A DNA stretch of 64,000 nucleotides from Candidatus Pyrohabitans jungbluthii (GTDB taxonomy: Archaea > Hydrothermarchaeota > Hydrothermarchaeia > Hydrothermarchaeales > BMS3B): the NCBI GenBank assembly GCA_002010065.2, contig MTMD02000001.1:77692-141691 (forward strand). Direction: 5' to 3'. The position numbers and the translations under genes were made by a program. Positions within the stretch are counted from its first letter, which is position 1. Each line of letters begins with the position of its first letter. The notes beneath the pieces are model-generated. The model did not search any database. It saw only the letters and a program-made list of their open reading frames with translations, and was not told the DNA's origin. This document shows positions 52,605 through 54,901 of this stretch, piece after piece.

Positions 52605-52621
52605 GGCAATAAATAAAGCTT

Positions 52622-52630
52622 TTTATATTT
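52622..52630 (+). promoter_or_regulatory. TATA box for the CARF-wHTH gene
   Basis: TTTATATTT is centred about 26 bases before the ATG at 52652, implying a leaderless transcript separate from the thermosome operon. Confidence 0.55.
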
Positions 52631-52651
52631 TCTATCAAAAATATTAGTTGG

Positions 52652-53338
52652 ATGAATGTCCATATTGCTCCAATCGGGACTCAAAGTGACGAGCATATCC
52701 GGAGGGCTGTTCATGGAAAAACGCCAGTGGATAAACTCTACCTAATACCAACGAAAGAGTCTTATGAAAAAGCAATTAAGTTGAAAGAAGACCTTGAAAA
52801 CACGCTTTCTTCTTTGAAAATAGAGATAAAGATGCTTGAAGAACAAGGTAGAAAACGTTTTATCGATCCATTTAATCTCAACGACATCGTTGCAGCAATA
52901 TTACAAATTGCAAACGCGGAGAAAGGAAATAAACTATTTGTAAACATAACTGGCGGAACAAACCTAATGGCAGGAGGTGCAACAACTGCAGCATATCTCA
53001 CGGGTGCAACCATATACTATATTAAGAAACAACAGGAGAATGAAAGACTTGAAGACATTATAATAAAAATCCCCGTTCCAAAAATACCGCTTTACAAATA
53101 CGGAGAAATTAGAGTAAAGATTTTAAAGATTATTGCAGAAAAAGGAGGAAGAATTAACAAAGCAAAAGAACTTGCAAGAGAATTGGACATAGCTCCGCAA
53201 ACGGTAAGCTACCATCTCAAAGAGTTAGAAAAGTCAGGACTCGTAAAAGTGATCATGGATGAAAACAACAGGCGACAGAAGCAATATGAGATAACAGAGA
53301 ACGGCAAATTAATAGCTACATTATTTGAGGTTGATTAG
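52652..53338 (+). CDS. CARF-domain winged-helix protein (HFX_2341/DUF6293-like)
   Basis: A 228-residue protein. The N-terminal 140 residues form a Rossmann-like CARF domain: MNVHIAPIGTQSDEHIRRAV, DKLYLIPTK and the ligand-loop motif FVNITGGTNLMAGGATTAAY (TGGTN at 100-104). The C-terminus (about 150-228) is a winged helix: ARELDIAPQTVSYHLKELEK, then an EITENGKL wing. CARF domains bind cyclic oligonucleotides; with a DNA-binding domain this is a likely transcription regulator of a defence locus (compare Csa3). No CRISPR array or cas gene is present. The A+T-rich codon use differs from neighbours. It converges on a HEPN-motif gene, overlapping by 23 bases. Confidence 0.82.
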   Translation: MNVHIAPIGTQSDEHIRRAVHGKTPVDKLYLIPTKESYEKAIKLKEDLENTLSSLKIEIKMLEEQGRKRFIDPFNLNDIVAAILQIANAEKGNKLFVNITGGTNLMAGGATTAAYLTGATIYYIKKQQENERLEDIIIKIPVPKIPLYKYGEIRVKILKIIAEKGGRINKAKELARELDIAPQTVSYHLKELEKSGLVKVIMDENNRRQKQYEITENGKLIATLFEVD

Positions 53339-54293
53339 TCTGTTCTAACGGGAACTTTGCAAAAATGTTAAGGATACCGAAGGTTAGATCTCGTGCTTTT
53401 TCTACATTTTCCTTGTGCATTGAGTCAGAGATATTCGCACATGTCCTATGTTCATATTTATTTCGTAAAGCTTGTATAACAATTAATTTTTCTGTAAGAC
53501 ATTTTAATTCATCATATGATAATGAATGGCCGATGTAATTCAAAAATTCTTCCATTATATCATTGTATATAATAATCATACAAAAAATTGGTATTAAATT
53601 TTTTATTTCACATGTTCCTTTATAGCAAACATCAAATTCTTTAATTTCTGGATCGGTGATTACATCCATTTTTTGTCTACTGCTTTTGAGATAATCTATA
53701 ATTTTATTTTCAATCTTATTTCGTTCTAGCTCTTTACAAATTTTATCTAATTTTTGTAAATATTTCATATTGTTATCTGATATAATTTTTTGAATTATAG
53801 TTTTGTCTTTAACTAAATAATTTGGATATTTATTTTTAGTATTATAATCAAAATCTTTTTCTTTTTCAAAAATTTTGTCTTCATATTTACAATCGAATAT
53901 TATGTTTTTAATTTCACTATTATTTAAAAATGAATTGAGTATAATTCTTAAATTATTTATTAATGAATCAGAATCTCCTAACACCTGATCATAATATCCA
54001 TATTTTATGATATCTCTGGCTTTGATAAAGTCGATATCAGATTCTTTGACTTTAATTTCTAAATCTTTAAGTTTTGATTTTATATACTGATATTCCGGAA
54101 TAATTTTCAAATTTTTAGATAATTTATTTTCTATTTCCCTTTCATAGGTTTTATCAGACGCTTGATTTAGTATTTTTCTAATTTGCCGCCGAATTTCGAC
54201 CATAGATACCCCAGATAAAAATGCAACTAAAATTCTCCAATTTTGTTTTAGAATTTTTTGAATATCTTCTATATCTACTTTTTTTAATTCCAT
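53316..54293 (-). CDS. AT-rich unknown protein with C-terminal HEPN-type R-x4-H motif
   Basis: A 325-residue mostly helical, Lys/Asn/Ile-rich protein whose base composition is far below the neighbours' GC content, suggesting recent transfer. Near the C-terminus, IVIQALRNKYEHRTCAN carries R277-N-K-Y-E-H282, the R-x4-6-H signature of HEPN RNases with the usual polar residue after Arg, flanked by long helices (EEFLNYIGHSLSYDELKCLT before, VEKARDLTFGILNIFAKF after) as in HEPN folds. The first 220 residues are unrecognised. ATTTAAAT about 30 bases upstream suggests a nearly leaderless promoter. A toxin/effector RNase role is inferred from motif and partner only. Confidence 0.65.
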   Translation of the reverse strand: MELKKVDIEDIQKILKQNWRILVAFLSGVSMVEIRRQIRKILNQASDKTYEREIENKLSKNLKIIPEYQYIKSKLKDLEIKVKESDIDFIKARDIIKYGYYDQVLGDSDSLINNLRIILNSFLNNSEIKNIIFDCKYEDKIFEKEKDFDYNTKNKYPNYLVKDKTIIQKIISDNNMKYLQKLDKICKELERNKIENKIIDYLKSSRQKMDVITDPEIKEFDVCYKGTCEIKNLIPIFCMIIIYNDIMEEFLNYIGHSLSYDELKCLTEKLIVIQALRNKYEHRTCANISDSMHKENVEKARDLTFGILNIFAKFPLEQTNQPQIM

Positions 54294-54415
54294 ATATGAA
54301 GAGTCTTAGAAAATAAATTATTTAAATGTTTTCTCAAACAATTCGACAAAACATCGAACAATCATAGGCAAGGCTAATTAAGTATAACGGAAAATCTGAG
54401 GACTGAGGTGATGTC

Positions 54416-54718
54416 ATGAAGATGAACACACTAAGCAAAAAGATAAAAACCAAAATTGAGTATGGCGCTTTATTGCTTGCCGATGAGCTATGGAACAGCA
54501 GTAAGCACATTCTCAGAGAAATATCTGCGGCAGTTGATTTCATAGCTTTTCTAAAGTTTATGAGAGATAAGAAGGTTGGAATCAGAGAAAAATTTGGACC
54601 ATTGGTTTTGGCTGTTATCACACGCAGTAAGATAGTTGCCAGCATGACTGTTGAATACTATAGAAGAAGGATAAAGGCCTATAGAAAGGACGCAGAGAGG
54701 ACGCTTAGCGGAGCATGA
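54416..54718 (+). CDS. 100-residue helical basic protein, unknown
   Basis: From the ATG after GGTGATG: KMNTLSKKIKTKIEYGALLL, ADELWNSSKHILREISAAVD, FIAFLKFMRDKKVGIREKFG and a basic end YYRRRIKAYRKDAERTLSGA. Helical, no cysteines, one mildly hydrophobic helix. Composition is between island and chromosome. I do not recognise it; position divergent to the HEPN-motif gene suggests it belongs to the same island. Confidence 0.58.
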   Translation: MKMNTLSKKIKTKIEYGALLLADELWNSSKHILREISAAVDFIAFLKFMRDKKVGIREKFGPLVLAVITRSKIVASMTVEYYRRRIKAYRKDAERTLSGA

Positions 54719-54770
54719 CGTCATAGATTTTTATCCATTGTCTGATGTCCATCAAATTTGCTCAATCTAA

Positions 54771-54896
54771 ACCTCAACCAATTTTAATCCAAAACTTTTT
54801 AGCGTTTTGGAAGACTTCGGTATAGTCAGAAAGAAAAAAAGAGGTAGAGAGGTAGAAGTAGAACTCGCTGTAAAGAAGATTGTGATTTTCAAGTGA
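54771..54896 (+). pseudogene. Possible remnant of a winged-helix gene (3' end only)
   Basis: An open stretch without a start codon reads NPKLFSVLEDFGIVRKKKRG then REVEVELAVKKIVIFK and a stop, like the wing and end of an HTH protein (GR..VEVEL after a helix). Nothing upstream in frame continues it, as a TAA lies just before. It may be what remains of a deleted gene in the island. The remaining bases of 54719-54901 show nothing else. Confidence 0.35.
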
Positions 54897-54901
54897 CGTG
54901 C

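Follow-up and report, generated by a model that had tools for sequence, protein, structure and literature searches.

To our knowledge, nearly all that has been described of CARF domains concerns their sensing of the cyclic oligoadenylate made by Cas10. One established architecture is that of Csa3 (TIGR01884; Csa3a of Saccharolobus solfataricus), in which an N-terminal CARF domain is joined to a C-terminal winged helix; this protein binds cA4 and acts as a transcriptional regulator (PMC8699464, PMC8844856). A second is that of the haloarchaeal HFX_2341/DUF6293 regulators (PF19810): HFX_2341 is vertically inherited, was described as a global regulator, and, in a haloarchaeon with no type III cyclase (Cas10), acts to repress CRISPR-associated genes, its ligand having been left open by its authors (PMC11434293). 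In the effectors Csm6 and Csx1, one chain unites the CARF sensor with a HEPN ribonuclease (PMC9704534), and the HEPN active site is an Rx4-6H motif with a polar residue after the arginine (PMC3710099). In bacteria, the BrxR/CapW regulators combine a WYL ligand domain with a winged helix-turn-helix (wHTH) and are co-localized with many defense systems, and BrxR acts as a repressor (PMC9122601).

Here we describe an island in the archaeon Candidatus Pyrohabitans jungbluthii that carries a CARF-wHTH gene converging on a gene for a candidate HEPN effector. The window analyzed is a stretch of 64,000 nucleotides from an archaeal assembly of 15 contigs that is 99.95% complete. The window regulator resembles Csa3 in domain order and length, but it stands in a genome with no Cas1 or Cas10 match, as part of a lone cassette in which its companion may be a HEPN gene, and it does not show the linkage to CRISPR-cas genes by which a CRISPR-associated Csa3 is strictly recognized. 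With HFX_2341 it shares the N-terminal CARF family and a genome that has no type III cyclase, but it lies on a mobile island. The pair as a whole recalls the two halves of Csm6 and Csx1, except that sensor and candidate HEPN half are encoded by two genes, the sensor has a wHTH, and no type III CRISPR system accompanies them. Its likeness to BrxR/CapW, given the CARF in place of the WYL domain, is one of working and not of family membership.

A CARF-winged-helix regulator on a laterally variable island

The regulator gene (52652..53338, forward strand) encodes a protein of 228 aa. Its CARF domain (residues 3-131, 52658..53044, forward strand) matched PF19810 (5e-17), PF09651 (Cas_APE2256; 3e-8) and PF23400 (the Card1 CARF; 5e-6), and the alignment placed an NITGGTN loop at residues 98-104. 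The winged helix-turn-helix (residues 152-219, 53105..53308, forward strand) matched HTH_5 (1.6e-10), HTH_20, MarR and many other HTH models. Over its whole length, the protein scored 68.9 bits against the NCBIfam Csa3 model TIGR01884, above the curated cut-off of 60.2, and the PADLOC CARF3 model matched at 1e-51. The protein is thus firmly identified as a CARF-wHTH regulator of the Csa3/HFX_2341/CARF3 type. The first-pass annotation had read a CARF-like domain with a TGGTN loop fused to a winged helix, which these profiles bear out; it had also raised the possibility of a module not yet described, wording that is too strong for a regulator that belongs to the Csa3/HFX_2341 type.

The regulator lies on an AT-rich island (52631..54895) whose limits were set by breaks in nucleotide matching and by a drop in GC. 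The closest genome, whose thermosome is 98% identical to that of the window, aligns with both flanks at 88-90% nucleotide identity; the match is lost at 52630 and picked up again at 54896. Outside the island GC is about 0.53, and within it 0.20-0.35. The CARF-wHTH gene has a GC of 0.37 and a GC3 of 0.33, and the 325-aa gene that converges on it has values of 0.24 and 0.18, as against a GC3 of 0.66-0.72 in most flanking genes. The island is therefore compositionally foreign, as first suggested from its base composition.

In the closest genome, the corresponding slot (L159:3886-5326) holds a UPF0175 gene (2e-27) and a gene for a DUF3368/PIN protein (1e-15), a toxin-antitoxin-type pair flanked by the same thermosome and cupin genes. 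Because a different toxin-antitoxin pair occupies the slot between flanks common to both genomes, the site is an insertion hotspot behind the thermosome gene, and the CARF island is one of its contents. An unidentified 114-aa ORF is also present in that slot. A search for att-like repeats around the island returned just short AT-rich repeats that were not convincing, and no tRNA or RNA family was found at the island.

A T/A-rich, box A-like stretch (52614..52631, forward strand) lies about 25-35 bases upstream of the CARF start codon, and a similar sequence stands at the same distance ahead of the start codon of the 325-aa gene; this placement suggests that both genes may give rise to leaderless transcripts. 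Divergent from the 325-aa gene is a 100-aa gene (54416..54718, forward strand) with no assigned function, no Pfam match and no relative among 61 genomes. It had been picked out at the start as an unknown gene, which still describes it, and it may represent a third component of the cassette. An open tail of 41 codons (54771..54896, forward strand), which ends at the right boundary of the island, looks like the last part of a winged helix and is possibly an HTH remnant; its last 32 residues had no Pfam match.

An orphan convergent protein with a candidate HEPN motif

The second main gene (53316..54293, reverse strand) encodes a Lys/Asn/Ile-rich protein of 325 aa and meets the regulator gene tail to tail, with a convergent overlap of 23 bases (53316..53338); this arrangement was confirmed as originally read. 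At the local composition, 325 open codons have a chance probability of about 1e-15, so the ORF is not a product of chance. The protein had no match in Pfam, NCBIfam, PADLOC, PHROGs or PDB sequences. No believable homologue was found in its own genome, in 394 archaeal relatives or in 389 genomes from the phylum to which the best CARF relatives belong (about 780 archaeal genomes in total), nor in genome contigs, viral contigs, plasmids or phages. Matches with E values of 1e-4 to 1e-2 were dismissed: they were short, often stop-bearing, or lay in ORFs laid out differently. As the 325-aa protein is an orphan, its pairing with a CARF-wHTH gene was seen once in the genomes searched.

Near the C-terminus, the protein carries R277-N-K-Y-E-H282 (53448..53465, reverse strand), the motif that had suggested a HEPN protein in the first place and that fits the HEPN active-site pattern as R277-N278-x3-H282. 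An R-x(4,6)-H motif by itself is weak, since 28% of shuffles of the protein contain one; a hydrophobic residue followed by R-N-x3-H within the last 110 residues occurred in 0.1% of shuffles. We also scanned the CARF neighborhoods, 441 proteins of 150-600 aa in all, with the looser pattern [LIVMF]R[NHDQ]x3H, placed 30-110 residues from the end. It picked out 11 proteins, none of them a known non-HEPN protein: six had independent HEPN, HepT or Csx1 matches (one of these weak), four came from a single partner family (L054, L107, L110 and L098), and one had no identity.

AlphaFold2 models built without an alignment were mostly helical and of low confidence (pLDDT of 36 for the whole protein and 55 for the C-terminal 147 residues). 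With these models, Foldseek returned no match with an E value below 2, and VIA-align scored unrelated helical proteins with a Z of at most 5.4. The models are too poor to judge a HEPN fold, and none appeared in them. Comparison by hhalign with four partner families gave probabilities no higher than 1%, inside the spread of 250 decoy proteins, and neither the LA2681-like (PF18733) nor the Swt1-like (PF18731) HEPN profile matched. The motif and its placement fit a HEPN protein, and the fold has gained no support from models or profile comparison. Judged on its motif and where the motif sits, the 325-aa protein is plausibly, and we think probably, a HEPN protein.

The same data bear on a different reading, in which the two genes are chance neighbors in a hotspot: the CARF-wHTH protein would be a stand-alone regulator that, like HFX_2341, acts elsewhere in the genome, and its neighbor of 325 aa would be an unrelated viral or plasmid orphan and not a HEPN protein. 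The orphan status of the protein agrees with this, as do the difference in GC between the two genes (24% versus 37%), the missing HEPN profile match, the fact that convergent genes need not be co-regulated, and the description of HFX_2341 as a global regulator (PMC11434293). It fits poorly with a motif and placement that arise in 0.1% of shuffles, and with the vertical inheritance of HFX_2341 (PMC11434293), as the family model of the window regulator finds no match in any other genome of the same genus or family. It also sits uneasily with the repeated occurrence of HEPN-type genes beside related regulators, described below. We regard chance adjacency as a possibility to be taken seriously, though not as the likely state of affairs.

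Related regulators keep company with HEPN and other defense genes

A profile built from the nearest CARF-wHTH proteins led to 27 named loci, and the neighbors of the regulators in three genomes (G278, G063 and G066) were also examined. Five kinds of company were found, in which the HEPN-type or viperin gene lay no more than two genes from the regulator. In the first, an LA2681-like HEPN gene adjoins the regulator, with Pfam-confirmed HEPN_LA2681 matches at L052 (2.7e-44) and L096 (7.7e-12), and L104 has a truncated relative; LA2681 members carry a C-terminal [LI]R[NH]x3H motif. The L096 locus (L096:7306-8759), from a Thermoplasmata MAG, has a PemK/MazF-like toxin gene beside the regulator as well as the LA2681 HEPN gene. 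In the second kind, the neighbor of a CARF-wHTH pair is an SF1 helicase that bears a Swt1-like HEPN domain at its N-terminus (L053, L099 and L102). The first of these loci (L053:2-18987, in G063) is also near apparent type I cas genes, a repeat array and a Cas9-like gene.

The third and fourth kinds are associated with restriction-modification (R-M). In Nitrososphaerota and a Methanomassiliicoccus MAG, the regulator is accompanied by a protein family with an [LI]R[NH]x3H motif, together with type I HsdM, HsdS or HsdR (L054, L107, L110 and L098). In haloarchaea (L089-L093 and L097), the gene of an R-x(4,5)-H family overlaps the start of the regulator by 1-4 bases and comes after a fused N6-methyltransferase/specificity gene (for example L089:5076-8660); at most of these loci, further genes reading like type I R-M come next. 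The haloarchaeal arrangement, an operon as yet without a name, is associated with type I R-M. In the fifth kind, the CARF-wHTH gene stands next to an SF1 helicase and a gene for a prokaryotic viperin (pVip, 2e-83) at L095:3246-8636; other radical SAM genes adjoin it at L106 and L109 (Heimdallarchaeota), and L094 has a similar helicase.

Proteins with a C-terminal hydrophobic-R[NHDQ]x3H motif made up 8 of the 81 encoded within two genes of the regulators and 1 of the 89 further away (Fisher p = 0.012), a comparison that rests on related, non-independent loci, those of the third kind among them. In a tree of CARF proteins, the window regulator lay on its own unplaced branch and no donor could be named; the nearest rows by path were L098, of the third kind, and the haloarchaeal kind. 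No relatives of the CARF protein were found among viral contigs. The conserved feature is the regulator's company: HEPN and other defense genes recurrently stand beside related CARF-wHTH genes. The initial proposal that regulators of this type keep company with HEPN proteins outside type III CRISPR was borne out by these neighborhoods.

That the partner genes vary among lineages and the regulator stays suggests control at the DNA and not through a conserved protein contact. This bears on the idea that the pair is a split Csm6- or Csx1-like effector, or a toxin-antitoxin pair working at the protein level, in which the CARF-wHTH protein would touch the HEPN protein and hold or activate it allosterically. 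The union of CARF and HEPN in one chain in Csm6 and Csx1 (PMC9704534), set against their side-by-side placement here, lends it some appeal, but the regulator retains a complete wHTH resembling those of DNA binders, and the partners of its relatives come from several unrelated HEPN-type families, which fits promoter control better than a protein interface. We consider a direct contact of this kind very improbable.

A genome without detectable Cas10

Searches of the 99.95% complete genome for Cas1 and for the palm domain of Cas10 gave no match, and no cas gene lies within the island, in keeping with the first-pass annotation, which had reported neither cas genes nor a CRISPR array. A cyclic oligoadenylate made by the cell's own type III system is therefore unlikely as the signal. 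The regulator might still be the solo remnant of a type III set, either a Csa3 that has lost its CRISPR locus or one that reads cyclic oligoadenylate from the Cas10 of a plasmid or sister strain. Cas10 was indeed found in one genome of the same genus and two of the same family, Csa3-type proteins bind cA4 (PMC8699464, PMC8844856), and apparent CRISPR genes stand beside some relatives (L053, with its repeat array, and L055). Against this are the absence of Cas1 and Cas10 from so complete a genome and the neighborhoods of the nearest relatives by sequence, which in the stretches read are linked to R-M and HEPN genes. On balance, we think a type III remnant unlikely.

A proposed mobile cassette

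Taken together, the explanation that we favor, by a modest measure of confidence, is a mobile defense cassette in which a ligand-responsive local regulator, likely a repressor, controls a toxic HEPN RNase effector. We infer that the 325-aa protein has the fold and activity of a HEPN enzyme, that the regulator represses, that a ligand governs it and that the cassette serves in defense; it might work as follows. The island would be a small, laterally moving defense or toxin-antitoxin-like cassette. The CARF-wHTH protein would act as a local transcription regulator that binds promoter DNA through its wHTH, most likely repressing the neighboring gene and perhaps itself too. A nucleotide-type signal arising from infection or stress would enter the CARF pocket and alter DNA binding. 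The 325-aa protein, most likely a HEPN ribonuclease, would be the effector, and its expression would stop growth or degrade viral RNA. A search for an operator common to the promoters found none. Transcriptional interference through the 23-base convergent overlap may add to this control; for Csa3-type proteins, regulation at the promoter is the better grounded of the two.

Every part of this cassette is of a known kind, and the links of such regulators to R-M or HEPN genes may already be contained in the CARF superfamily classification (NAR 2020). What is new is their combination, a lone, mobile CARF-wHTH gene accompanied by a candidate HEPN effector in a genome where no Cas10 was detected. 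More speculatively, the archaeal CARF-wHTH class could be a counterpart of BrxR, a set of ligand-gated switches placed before interchangeable effectors (HEPN RNases, type I R-M and viperins) in cells that have no Cas10. The CARF signal would then be a nucleotide from a source other than type III CRISPR, and the window would hold a minimal two-gene form with an unrecognized HEPN family; we advance this generalization tentatively, as something that we do not expect to hold in full.

What does the CARF domain of a mobile regulator bind when it lies beside a likely RNase and no Cas10 can be detected in the genome? The neighborhoods with LA2681-like HEPN proteins, Swt1-like HEPN helicases, R-x(4,5)-H proteins with type I R-M, and viperins suggest that this clade of regulators marks archaeal defense cassettes, and the clade could serve to discover new ones.
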